Shown here piece after piece: positions 2,730 through 5,614 of a stretch of DNA of 20,241 nt. The notes beneath the pieces were generated by a model. The model was given only the letters and a program-made list of their open reading frames with translations, was not told the DNA's origin and searched no databases. Source of the stretch: a virus; the IMG/VR virus record IMGVR_UViG_3300025759_000926, positions 1 to 20,241 of that record; one strand, given 5' to 3'. A program made the position numbers and the translations under genes. The first letter of the stretch is position 1, and each line of letters opens with the position of its first letter.

Positions 2730-2930
2730 ATGACAAACGAAAAACTAAAATTAATCAAAACTCTTGTAGTAGATTTAGGTTGGGAATATGACCGAATGTC
2801 CTCAAGTGGTAAAGAAACCTACGATGCACTAGAAACTGCATTAGGTTTAGACAAAATACCTGTTTCAAAAGAGCAACTTATTTCAATGGGTATGCCTGAA
2901 AATTTAGCTAACGATTATCTAAAACAATGA
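2730..2930 (+). CDS. Small hypothetical protein (66 aa), first gene of the plus-strand cluster
   Basis: I do not recognise a family. The product is a soluble, mostly helical 66-residue protein with a mixed-charge N-terminus (MTNEKLKLIKTLVVDLGWEY) and no cysteines or membrane segment. An AAGGA Shine-Dalgarno element precedes the ATG. It is the first gene after the promoter and its stop overlaps the next start (ATGA). Position and size suggest an early accessory protein, but no function is visible. Confidence 0.75.
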   Translation: MTNEKLKLIKTLVVDLGWEYDRMSSSGKETYDALETALGLDKIPVSKEQLISMGMPENLANDYLKQ

Positions 2931-3169
2931 TCCAATACCAAGAAGAAAAAGTTACAGCTAAGACAAAAGCTAAACACGAAGTATCAGACTATCTCATGGA
3001 GTTATTTAACAATCCTCAGAGATATATCAAAGACTTAGGCGAGCTAACCACCAAAGAGCAAGACGAAGTCCTCAGACACATTAGTTTGTTTGAGGATCGA
3101 ATCCATAAAGTTCTTGGTGTTAGTTTCAAACAGATAGACAGTAAAACCAATTTCATTAAAAATATATAG
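2927..3169 (+). CDS. Small hypothetical helical protein (80 aa)
   Basis: The family is unknown. The protein is 80 residues, highly charged, and probably all alpha-helical, with Lys/Glu-rich segments and a central LTTKEQDEVLRHISLFEDRI helix. Its ATG lies inside the stop region of the preceding gene (ATGA at 2927-2930), implying translational coupling. No signal peptide or metal site is seen. Confidence 0.75.
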   Translation: MIQYQEEKVTAKTKAKHEVSDYLMELFNNPQRYIKDLGELTTKEQDEVLRHISLFEDRIHKVLGVSFKQIDSKTNFIKNI

Positions 3170-3179
3170 GAGAGTAATT

Positions 3180-3320
3180 ATGGCAATTCATATGACGAGA
3201 TATAAAGGTAAGAAGGTTCAAGGCAAAGGAGAAGAGTTCATGGAAGAACTTAGACGAATGGTCGCTGAACACAAAGCCAAGGAGAAGAAAGGTGACTCAG
3301 TACAAAGACAAGCTAAATAA
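3180..3320 (+). CDS. Very small basic protein (46 aa)
   Basis: A 46-codon frame starts at an ATG preceded by AGGAGAG at good spacing and ends in TAA. The product (MAIHMTRYKGKKVQGKGEEF at the N-terminus) is Lys-rich with one amphipathic helix and no recognisable domain. It overlaps the GTG start of the next gene by 29 nt. A strong Shine-Dalgarno, tight placement in the cluster and charged composition support it as real. Function is unknown. Confidence 0.6.
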   Translation: MAIHMTRYKGKKVQGKGEEFMEELRRMVAEHKAKEKKGDSVQRQAK

Positions 3321-3561
3321 TCGGAAAGAAGAATTGATAGAAGAACAAATGGATAAGACTTGGACTTGTATCTACTCTCAATGGGATAAGCGTGATCCAA
3401 ACGCTGAGAACTATAGAAAGACCATTTATGCAAGTGGCAGAGAAGTTACTACACAAATTCTAGTAGCCTTTGGTATTCACAACACAAGAAGTGAATGGAA
3501 TCATGTTAAATACAAAGAACCAATGCGTAGATGGGTTTTTAGGAAAGCATTTAAAAAATGA
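3292..3561 (+). CDS. Hypothetical protein (89 aa), GTG start
   Basis: The family is unknown. The 89-residue product is basic and rich in Trp, Arg and Lys, with a charged helical N-terminus and a C-terminus ending RRWVFRKAFKK. The start is a GTG placed a few bases after AAGGAG. The frame begins inside the 3' end of the previous gene and ends in an ATGA overlap with the next. The basic, aromatic-rich C-terminus would suit nucleic-acid or protein contact, but this is a guess. Confidence 0.7.
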   Translation: MTQYKDKLNNRKEELIEEQMDKTWTCIYSQWDKRDPNAENYRKTIYASGREVTTQILVAFGIHNTRSEWNHVKYKEPMRRWVFRKAFKK

Positions 3562-3659
3562 CACAAGTTTTGCTATGGGTACTGTTTTTTCTCTGTTTAC
3601 TTGTATATGTAATAACAGTATCCGTAGCACTCTATCTAATCGTTAAGGATAAAGTATGA
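3558..3659 (+). CDS. Tiny single-span membrane protein (33 aa)
   Basis: The 33-residue frame is almost entirely one hydrophobic helix (about residues 4-28, VLLWVLFFLCLLVYVITVSV and onward) ending in a short basic tail, KDKV. It should insert in the inner membrane with the tail in the cytoplasm. It is linked by ATGA to both neighbours, which argues strongly that it is translated. Possible roles include a membrane anchor, superinfection exclusion or a holin-like accessory; none is proven. Confidence 0.65.
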   Translation: MTQVLLWVLFFLCLLVYVITVSVALYLIVKDKV

Positions 3660-3982
3660 AAAAATTTATTGAGTGTTCAGAGTGTGGTAATTATTTTGTT
3701 AAATACCATAAACGTAAAACTTGTAGCAACGAATGTTCAAGGCAACGTCAATATAGACTGAATAGAAATTCATGTAGTGTTGGAGATGTAACAGAATCAG
3801 AGGGTTTTGATATCTATGAGCTTGAGTGTTGTTCAGTTGATCCAAATATTCTAAGACAAGCAGAAGAATATGAAAGTCGTTCAAAATATGATTGGGAGAT
3901 GTTTAGATTCTTTGTTTTATTAAACAAAACTAGATCAGGTCAATTTTCAAGCAAACCAAAAGACACAGGTTCGTTTAAATGA
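3656..3982 (+). CDS. Zinc-finger protein of unknown function (108 aa)
   Basis: The N-terminus carries a four-cysteine zinc-binding site: C7 and C10 in CSECG, then C22 and C26 in TCSNECS. A basic RQRQYRLNRN segment follows, as in small treble-clef or zinc-ribbon DNA- or RNA-binding proteins. Two or three further cysteines near 40-60 could form part of a second site. The C-terminus is charged and helical. The ATG follows AAGGATAAAGT and overlaps the previous stop. A role in binding nucleic acid is likely; the target is unknown. Confidence 0.75.
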   Translation: MKKFIECSECGNYFVKYHKRKTCSNECSRQRQYRLNRNSCSVGDVTESEGFDIYELECCSVDPNILRQAEEYESRSKYDWEMFRFFVLLNKTRSGQFSSKPKDTGSFK

Positions 3983-4113
3983 GCAACCAAGAACACAGGC
4001 TCATCCAACACCTCAAGAACGAATATAAGAAGATGAATAAGGATCAGCTTATAGAAATTATCCTTAATCAAATAAGGCCACACATAAACAGAAAACCAAG
4101 CAATGGGAGATAA
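3979..4113 (+). CDS. Very small charged protein (44 aa)
   Basis: A 44-residue frame coupled by ATGA to the zinc-finger gene. The product is helical and Lys/Gln-rich (NKDQLIEIILNQIRPHIN near its middle) with no recognisable domain. Support comes from the stop/start overlap and the tight chain of genes, because it is too short for composition to be decisive. Confidence 0.55.
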   Translation: MSNQEHRLIQHLKNEYKKMNKDQLIEIILNQIRPHINRKPSNGR

Positions 4114-4116
4114 ATT

Positions 4117-4167
4117 ATGGTTAGTTATCCTTGTGGATGGTTCGATCCAGAACAATTACCAAAATGA
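4117..4167 (+). CDS. Possible 16-residue ORF (leader or micro-gene)
   Basis: A 16-codon frame (MVSYPCGWFDPEQLPK) follows a GGGAGA element at workable spacing. Its TGA is shared with the ATG of the next gene (ATGA at 4164-4167). It fills exactly the gap between two coupled genes, so it may be translated to carry ribosomes into the next frame. A free-standing function is uncertain. Confidence 0.35.
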   Translation: MVSYPCGWFDPEQLPK

Positions 4168-4337
4168 GCAAACTTAAACATCAACAGGTAATGAAACTCT
4201 GTGTCATGACTGAAGAAGATGTGTTTAACGACAAGACATCAACTGAAGAAATGATGGAGATTATTGCGGATGCAATCACTAATAAAAGATTTTACTTTGA
4301 ATTAATTAACCCAAAAAAAGATAAGGAGAGCAAATGA
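4164..4337 (+). CDS. Small hypothetical acidic protein (57 aa)
   Basis: The chosen start is the ATG in the ATGA overlap at 4164; a longer frame would need a TTG at 4131 and lacks a good ribosome site. The product is helical, Met-rich and acidic in the middle (MTEEDVFNDKTSTEEMMEII), then ends in a Lys-rich tail. No family is recognised. It is coupled by ATGA to the next gene as well. Confidence 0.65.
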   Translation: MSKLKHQQVMKLCVMTEEDVFNDKTSTEEMMEIIADAITNKRFYFELINPKKDKESK

Positions 4338-4552
4338 AAATATATATAGCTAGAGAAGTTAATGATCCAATGCTTTATTCATTACATACAAACAAAAAAG
4401 ATTGTGATAAGTGGATAAGGGACAACACAATGGAAGCTACCTTTTATGATACTGAACCGAAAAATTTCTTTATTAAAGTTATTGAATTTAAATTAAACAA
4501 GCAAAGTATTTTACATGCAATCGATAACATAATAGAGGTATTTTTACGATGA
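4334..4552 (+). CDS. Small hypothetical protein (72 aa)
   Basis: The family is unknown. The N-terminus (MKIYIAREVNDPMLYSLHTN) looks like a beta-strand entry, followed by a Lys/Asp-rich helix and further alternating strands, so a small alpha/beta fold is likely. An AAGGAGAG ribosome site precedes the ATG, and the gene overlaps both neighbours by ATGA. Confidence 0.7.
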   Translation: MKIYIAREVNDPMLYSLHTNKKDCDKWIRDNTMEATFYDTEPKNFFIKVIEFKLNKQSILHAIDNIIEVFLR

Positions 4553-4731
4553 CTTACGAAATAGCTGAATATAAATATGCGTGTTATCTGAGAGATAAAG
4601 GTTATGTCGGTGAATTACCCTATCCAAGTCCAAAACATTCTAAGATGGATGAAGAAGGTAATTGGCTGCTTATCAATCGTGAGGGCCACAAACTTGCAAA
4701 AGTATTCATTGGCGGAAAAGTAATAGCATGA
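4549..4731 (+). CDS. Small hypothetical protein (60 aa)
   Basis: The family is unknown. The product starts with a helical, Tyr-rich segment, then has DEEGNWLLINREGHKLAKVF, which reads as a small beta-hairpin or sheet. There is no metal site or membrane segment. It is coupled by ATGA at both ends. Confidence 0.65.
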   Translation: MTYEIAEYKYACYLRDKGYVGELPYPSPKHSKMDEEGNWLLINREGHKLAKVFIGGKVIA

Positions 4732-4811
4732 TTGAGAGTCTAACCATTACAGTCGCAATAGCTTTACTGATCCTCATTGTTATCTTTGACGATAACTTCC
4801 CAAACACATAA
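4728..4811 (+). CDS. Tiny membrane peptide (27 aa), last gene of the cluster
   Basis: A 27-residue frame overlaps the previous stop (ATGA). It contains one hydrophobic stretch (LTITVAIALLILIVIF, about 5-20) followed by an acidic, polar tail DDNFPNT. It would be a single-span inner-membrane peptide. It is the second such mini-membrane protein in this operon. Short length limits confidence. Confidence 0.5.
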   Translation: MIESLTITVAIALLILIVIFDDNFPNT

Positions 4812-4816
4812 GTTTA

Positions 4817-4873
4817 GGGCGAAGGCTACTCAGGTTTATTCATACCACCTTCCTTAGAGAGTAGCCCAAGCCC
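4817..4873. repeat. Long imperfect inverted repeat at the convergent gene junction
   Basis: GGGC (4817-4820) plus GGCTACTC (4824-4831) pairs with GAGTAGCC (4859-4866) plus GCCC (4870-4873), giving 12 paired positions with a 3-nt internal loop. The 27-nt loop can itself form a short AGG/CCT stem. It lies where the plus-strand small-gene operon meets the end of the minus-strand winged-helix gene. A transcription barrier in one or both directions is plausible, but there is no clear U-run. Confidence 0.45.
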
Positions 4874-5271
4874 ACCAATAAAATATGTTTTCTTTTACCA
4901 GCAATCGCTTTCTCAACGAGCTTTCTTTCTTCCTCTAAGGCAACCCGGATTAAACCTTTCTCAGCCAAAGCGCTGACAGCTCTACCAACAGACCTGCGGT
5001 TCATACCTATCATCTTGGCGTAATAACTATAAGCATCATGCGAACTAAAGGTTTCATAGCGATAGCGCTCAACCACCGCCCACAGCACAAGCGTTTCTAC
5101 CGGGCTAATATCCGTTCTCCCTGCGCGCGCCCTAAACCACGCCCACAGATGCGTTCTGAGTTTCTTCCAATCCCTAAAATCATTAACGAATCTTACATGC
5201 ACAAACGCTGAATGTTCCTCGTTCTCTGGCACTCCGTTAACAATCCACCAATATTGATCTTGCTCTCTCAA
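4840..5271 (-). CDS. Winged-helix (HTH_36-like) DNA-binding protein, possible replication initiator or regulator
   Basis: The C-terminal half contains a winged-helix of the HTH_36 type: SPVETLVLWAVVERY, then AKMIGMNRRSVGRAVSALAE, then KGLIRV. The N-terminal part is Trp-rich (QYWWIVNGVPENEEHSAF) and resembles no domain I can name. Proteins of this type act as replication initiators or repressors. I chose a TTG start at 5271 that overlaps the upstream stop (TTGA), with GGGAG about 10 nt before it. A GTG at 5322 would add a purely basic Arg/Glu repeat encoded by low-complexity DNA. Three 21-bp repeats lie about 280 bp upstream and are the obvious candidate target; that link is inference. Confidence 0.7.
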   Translation of the reverse strand: MREQDQYWWIVNGVPENEEHSAFVHVRFVNDFRDWKKLRTHLWAWFRARAGRTDISPVETLVLWAVVERYRYETFSSHDAYSYYAKMIGMNRRSVGRAVSALAEKGLIRVALEEERKLVEKAIAGKRKHILLVGLGYSLRKVV

Positions 5272-5477
5272 TGTAGCGTTTCTCCCTCGCTCTCGCTTGC
5301 GCCTTCGCTCTCGCTCTCGCACACGCTCTCTTCATCTACGACTGCCTCTAATGTTCCTAGCAGAGTCACTCCCAGGTATTCGGCTTGCGCCTGTGCGCTA
5401 GCGAAATCTTTTGCATAGATCTTAGGGCCATCGTATTTAACTCCGTCCCACTCAAACTCAGTAATAAATATTTTCAT
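5268..5477 (-). CDS. Small hypothetical protein with acidic Glu/Ser tail (69 aa)
   Basis: The start is the ATG at 5477, which has an excellent AAGGAGAG Shine-Dalgarno; a longer frame to 5522 would run through the leader hairpin. Residues 1-45 form a probable small alpha/beta domain (MKIFITEFEWDGVKYDGP and a helix with ASAQAQAEYLG). The last 20 or so residues are a Glu/Ser repeat (ESESEGASESEGE) encoded by a GAGAGC-like microsatellite. Acidic tails of this kind can mimic DNA or mask a partner's basic surface. The stop overlaps the start of the winged-helix gene, so the two are co-translated. No family is recognised. Confidence 0.7.
   Translation of the reverse strand: MKIFITEFEWDGVKYDGPKIYAKDFASAQAQAEYLGVTLLGTLEAVVDEESVCESESEGASESEGETLH
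5277..5326 (-). repeat. GAGAGC-type microsatellite within the coding overlap
   Basis: On the minus strand this stretch is an imperfect hexamer repeat of GAGAGC/GCGAGA. In one frame it encodes the Glu/Ser tail of the 69-aa protein. In another it would encode alternating Arg and Glu at the N-terminus of the winged-helix ORF if the GTG start were used. Such tracts are prone to slippage in multiples of 6. Confidence 0.7.
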
Positions 5478-5551: not shown

Positions 5552-5614
5552 ACTCTACGCCACCTCTTTGGTACTGTACGCCACCTCATGGGTACTCTAC
5601 GCCACATCTCCTGT
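5552..5614. repeat. Three tandem 21-bp iteron-like repeats
   Basis: The copies are 5552-5572, 5573-5593 and 5594-5614, with consensus ACTCTACGCCACCTCNNGGGT. The core TACGCCAC is identical in all three and the period is exactly 21 bp, two helical turns, so bound proteins would align on one DNA face. An A+T-rich stretch with TATATC and CATAATA lies next to them at 5523-5551. The array is between the 60-aa gene and the operon containing the winged-helix protein. Iteron arrays of this sort mark replication origins or cooperative operators. Confidence 0.8.

Follow-up and report, generated by a model that had tools for sequence, protein, structure and literature searches.

What does a chain of very short, closely linked genes encode, and is any of its products shared beyond a single phage? 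We asked this of positions 2730-4811 of a virus record of 20,241 bases (termed the window), for which a first-pass annotation had proposed a chain of about twelve tiny plus-strand genes acting as an early takeover or anti-defence island.

The window and its relatives

The window derives from a tailed phage with an integrase and has a G+C content of 38%. In addition to the terminase and replication-initiation-like (rep-like) genes of Table 1, profile matches identified a methyltransferase, a PAPS-reductase-like protein, a primase-helicase, a Sak4-like annealing protein, an exonuclease, the integrase and a second methyltransferase; we take one methyltransferase to be of the MT-A70 type and the other of the C5 type. 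DNA comparison of the window with phage records found none near, and the best identity of its large terminase to those records was 50%. IMG/VR holds hundreds of relatives of this terminase, of which we kept 80 (TerL loci); in 38 of them, termed full loci, the stretch examined includes the small terminase as well as the rep-like gene.

Scans of the window for Rfam families, tRNAs and terminators gave nothing useful. At 5552-5614, three 21-bp direct repeats of the CTACGCCACCTC type, with a spacing of 21, adjoin on its upstream side the minus-strand operon containing the rep-like gene; they look like the iterons of an origin. The CTCTCGC-type repeats at 5277-5326 correspond to the Arg/Glu-rich N-terminus of the rep-like ORF, whose true start may lie further in. 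The 144 nt between the terminase genes (1967-2110) are G+C-rich by eye, with an unremarkable RNA fold (z -1.2) and no match in Rfam.

Table 1 Features of the array and its surroundings. Full loci, number of the 38 full loci with a member; pN/pS values are against L001-L003.
Feature	Position	Strand	Length (aa)	Full loci	Remarks
Large terminase	434-1966	minus			phrog_2-type; profile match
Small terminase	2111-2581	minus			profile match
Promoter-like block	2659-2686	plus			TTGCAT-N16-TATAAT, extended -10 TGATATAAT from 2678; kept in L001-L003
g1	2730-2930	plus	66		cargo, first slot; weak phrog_17030 match (7.9e-5)
g2	2927-3169	plus	80	8/38	pN/pS 0.04
g3	3180-3320	plus	46	3/38	L001-L003 only; pN/pS 0.06
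g4	3292-3561	plus	89	12/38	GTG start
g5	3558-3659	plus	33	8/38	single hydrophobic span
g6	3656-3982	plus	108	2/38	CxxC...CxxxC; cargo
g7	3979-4113	plus	44	7/38	pN/pS 0.05
g7b	4117-4167	plus	16	18/38	micropeptide MVSYPCGWFDPEQLPK
g8	4164-4337	plus	57	6/38	3 of the 6 outside the interval; pN/pS 0.05
g9	4334-4552	plus	72	0/38	cargo
g10	4549-4731	plus	60	31/38	framework gene
g11	4728-4811	plus	27	6/38	single hydrophobic span
Rep-like gene	4840-5322	minus			replication-initiation-like; profile match

A chain of coupled tiny genes

Twelve plus-strand ORFs of 16-108 aa fill the segment, as had been proposed, and they diverge from the packaging genes. Eight of the 11 junctions, all of them named in the first-pass annotation, are shared ATGA tetranucleotides, with ORFs of 14 codons or more on either side. 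Dinucleotide shuffles of 2730-4811 contained a mean of 0.88 and a maximum of 5 such junctions, none of 1000 reaching 8, and other window segments of the same size have at most 3 per strand. The remaining junctions are a 10-nt gap between g2 and g3, a 29-nt overlap of g3 with g4, and a 3-nt gap between g7 and g7b.

All frames common to the window and its three closest relatives (L001-L003) are intact; the stops in close relatives that had been named as an argument against the chain were not found there. Pooled pN/pS against these relatives was 0.04-0.10 for g2, g3, g7, g8, and g10, 0 for g11, 0.28 for g6, and 0.46-0.51 for g4 and g5. Against more distant loci, for which many synonymous sites approach saturation, values ranged from 0.19 to 0.66, the extremes being g11 and g5 (0.51 for g5 in the near comparison).

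The description of most products as unrecognised holds: Pfam and PHROG searches with g1-g10 returned weak matches only. As read from the sequence, g6 carries the cysteine pattern of the postulated zinc-finger protein, with weak similarity to an HNH profile (phrog_1271, 2.5e-5), and g5 and g11, the two presumed single-span membrane mini-proteins, each have one hydrophobic segment. PADLOC, whose models cover defence and not counter-defence, gave a single weak match for g1-g10, of g8 to a Cas6 profile (0.0012, 16.6 bits), which we judge to be chance. The g10 structure model has a pLDDT of 93, but a fold search with it found no significant match (best viral match unnamed, E 0.034); the g4 fold model is of moderate confidence. 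At 10804-11418 of L017 (reverse-complement coordinates), a 204-aa HNH-endonuclease-like ORF lies between g10 and g11, and its C-terminal end is similar to the end of g10, as if a copy of g10 had been captured.

Framework and exchangeable slots

The array had been placed behind a strong promoter. A candidate block is indeed present and conserved in L001-L003, but its -35 hexamer is weak, which is why it is absent from the list of a consensus promoter scan; that scan was uninformative (9 sites vs 11.6 expected).

The first gene behind this block differs in all four phages. Additional ORFs are present in L001 (83 aa, between g2 and g3) and in L002 (72 aa, between g7 and g7b); L002 is without g6. 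No relative of g1 or g9 was found among the 80 TerL loci, and in IMG/VR both occur in only one other contig, 99.9-100% identical to the window. By contrast, g10 is always located, in the full loci that carry it, in the interval between the small terminase and rep-like genes (hereafter the interval), on the plus strand. The array thus combines a framework with slots whose content is exchanged, and closely related phages carry different small cargo genes downstream of a common promoter.

We propose that the array would be a single operon of the early type, in which a conserved promoter precedes tiny genes coupled in translation; the partly constant portion, g10 above all, would serve as the framework and the slots would exchange cargo. 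Its assignment to the early class is an extrapolation from position.

A widely shared micropeptide

The most widely shared element of the array is the 16-codon gene at 4117, g7b, which the first-pass annotation had not singled out. Its core is YP[CGS]GWFDxEQLP. With all sources pooled, we found YP[CGS]G[WS]FDxEQLP in at least 136 distinct IMG/VR contigs, among 202 distinct viral loci examined, most of which had been chosen by pattern. These scans were pattern-based, and the one with YPCGWFD alone gave at least 120 stretches. Among the matches listed, 119 loci were read, one of them ending at the motif; in 114 of the other 118, xEQLP follows and the frame ends shortly afterwards, and the remaining four (L175, L179, L186, and L200) look like chance. 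In variants of the family, Gly or Ser replaces Cys, and a more distant group is exemplified by MINYPCGWYDPDQLPKSK in L251. An extended form of about 50 aa in L183 and L250 has a common C-terminal part, KIKYI...DLDGKD.W.KRSEYQQ.NSV.KNIFK.

Where g7b occurs in full loci, it lies within the interval on the plus strand in 7 cases and outside it on the minus strand in 11. The other 20 have no recognisable copy in the stretch examined, although absence from a single contig is weak evidence because metagenomic contigs are short. We conclude that the g7b product belongs to a new family of micropeptides.

Searches beyond these contigs yielded no credible match. A scan of 84,980 bacterial and archaeal genomes for the core pattern as far as EQ found no copy, and tblastn of 50,697 phage records with the micropeptide gave nothing credible, in both cases at the sensitivity used. 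There were no Pfam or PHROG families for two 24-aa forms, and with the long L183 form a Pfam match to RE_ScaI stayed below threshold (0.007, 16.5 bits vs a cut-off of 25). A PDB sequence search returned two chance-level nanobody matches only. Searching for the motif inside larger proteins, as GWFDxEQLP with the Tyr codon replaced by one not starting with T, gave 0 stretches, and the literature searched for the string YPCGWF contained no mention of it. Fremin et al. reportedly compiled a small-gene catalogue of phages and microbiomes in 2022. The GMSC catalogue predicts ORFs from 30 nt and holds proteins of 9-99 aa (PMC11364881), a range that covers 16 aa, and the micropeptide may therefore sit in it unnamed.

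Coding constraint on g7b

Because the core is conserved at the DNA level over a short stretch, it could be a conserved RNA or DNA element in which the open frame is incidental. This is very hard to reconcile with the spelling of the core: among the 120 contigs listed, its 42 nt occur in 62 distinct spellings that encode one peptide, and the differences between them fall mainly at synonymous sites. The search pattern itself fixed part of the core; the L and P that follow the pattern were left free, and they are kept in all 62 spellings, written with five and four codons, respectively. In a set found through the terminase only, whose members were recognised with a less strict core motif (21 with the window counted, 15 spellings), pS was 0.365 and pN 0.089. 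Median identity between members was 0.83 in the core vs 0.31 and 0.33 in the 45-nt flanks.

Each of 90 distinct upstream-plus-ORF sequences starts with ATG (85) or GTG (5), an SD-like match precedes 64, and 32 overlap the next gene by ATGA. Together with the lack of an Rfam match at the window locus, these observations make a nucleic-acid element highly improbable. The near comparison of g7b alone cannot show constraint, because each of L001-L003 differs from the window by one changed residue and at no synonymous site.

Neighbours and phage lineages

The shortness of g7b and its ATGA overlaps with the next gene would also suit a leader or arrest peptide that regulates translation of that gene in cis. 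The first ORFs downstream of the micropeptide, however, belong to at least 14 families, the largest accounting for 18 of 117 (set of 128 loci: the 120 distinct contigs listed, seven repeats, and the window), and no ORF family is present on more than 39 of the 120 contigs listed that carry it. There is thus no fixed downstream gene to regulate, which argues against a role in cis. Moreover, the core stands at the start of ORFs that are between 16 and 51 aa long, which leaves a variable distance to the stop codon. We therefore regard regulation in cis as improbable. Frameshifting of g7b into a longer product was set aside because the downstream families differ. In L197 and 17 other loci, the gene directly downstream encodes a phage exonuclease VII small subunit (PF02609, 1.2e-15).

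The family also crosses phage lineages. Among 30 longer records with the micropeptide, 8 have a window-type terminase, whereas the terminases of L194 and L137 belong to a different family, phrog_38, and show no similarity to that of the window by BLASTP at E 1e-3. Profiles of g2, g4, g8, and g10 likewise have members in contigs of the phrog_38-terminase group (the g8 case, L174, is placed there by shared gene clusters only), indicating that part of the tiny-gene set is common to unrelated phages. The proposed operon would accordingly draw on a partly common tiny-gene pool. Transfer of gene modules across pelagiphage families, involving other genes, has been described (PMC9599517).

The terminases of HTVC027P and HTVC023P, cultured phages of SAR11 (Pelagibacter), are 61% and 59% identical to that of L194, but unlike L194 these phages have no recognisable micropeptide in 50.0 of 57.6 kb and 40.9 of 60.9 kb, respectively; the stretch examined of 023Pt_psg01 contains no micropeptide either. 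A terminase 85% identical to that of the window occurs in a contig binned as Candidatus Pelagibacter. We do not take this as a host assignment, as the binned contig is itself phage sequence, without the micropeptide in the 13.9 kb examined.

Comparison with T4 Stp and proposed mode of action

T4 Stp is an anti-restriction peptide that also activates the PrrC tRNA nuclease. Its gene lies within a run of tiny genes in the T4 record. Stp has 26 residues, of which the N-terminal 18 are almost invariant and the tail polymorphic, belongs to the delayed early class, and inhibits type Ic restriction (PMC3014915). The g7b product resembles Stp in size, in its conserved N-terminal part and variable tail, and in its setting; conservation of Stp is described for T4-related phages, whereas the g7b core occurs in two unrelated terminase lineages. 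BLASTP produced no alignment of the two at E <= 100, and in a three-way alignment of g7b with both Stp members only M1 is common. The likeness is therefore one of mode and not of membership.

This likeness in anatomy and setting and the exchangeable slots of the array could suggest that the micropeptide and its neighbours block host restriction-modification or another defence complex, as Stp does. Given the absence of sequence similarity to Stp, the PADLOC search with nothing beyond the weak g8 match, and a motif so invariant across lineages that it would need one very conserved defence target, we consider this specific version rather unlikely, while an anti-defence role of g7b in a general sense is plausible. 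The island reading of the whole array stands in a similar position: exchangeable slots and tiny genes partly common to unrelated phages fit it, but none of the products matched a known anti-defence or takeover family in the profile searches.

On balance, we think that the product of g7b is probably a docking peptide that acts in trans and whose gene belongs to a pool of tiny genes common to several phages. Residues 1 to about 14, M..[IV]NYP[CGS]GWFDxEQLP, would be its functional part, with a free tail. Within P-x-G, Cys can give way to Gly or Ser, which favours a tight turn over chemistry, as far as the residues can tell; a metal, disulphide or modified-peptide role of the Cys was set aside because of the same replacement. 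The near-invariant 12-residue core, the free tail and the free surroundings have the look of a docking motif and point to a small docking peptide whose target is important. We infer that g7b most likely works in trans by supplying a ready-made short linear motif, in which the turn formed by P, a small residue and G, together with the W-F-D and E-Q-L-P residues, would dock on a conserved protein, either one of the infected cell or one that replicates the phage. By analogy with Stp and its restriction enzyme, docking might switch the target off or redirect it.

More tentatively, the family may represent a transferable 12-residue docking motif that exists as its own gene, has one conserved target in the infected cell, and has been passed between unrelated tailed-phage lineages with the g2, g4, g8, and g10 pool.

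Phage micropeptides this small are rarely credible from sequence alone, but g7b has the support of constraint at the codon level, seen in many contigs and in two terminase lineages, and the array around it has a clear framework-and-slots layout. To our knowledge, the family may rank with the smallest phage protein modules that are widely shared, and g7b is small enough to be synthesized, so its target can be fished directly.
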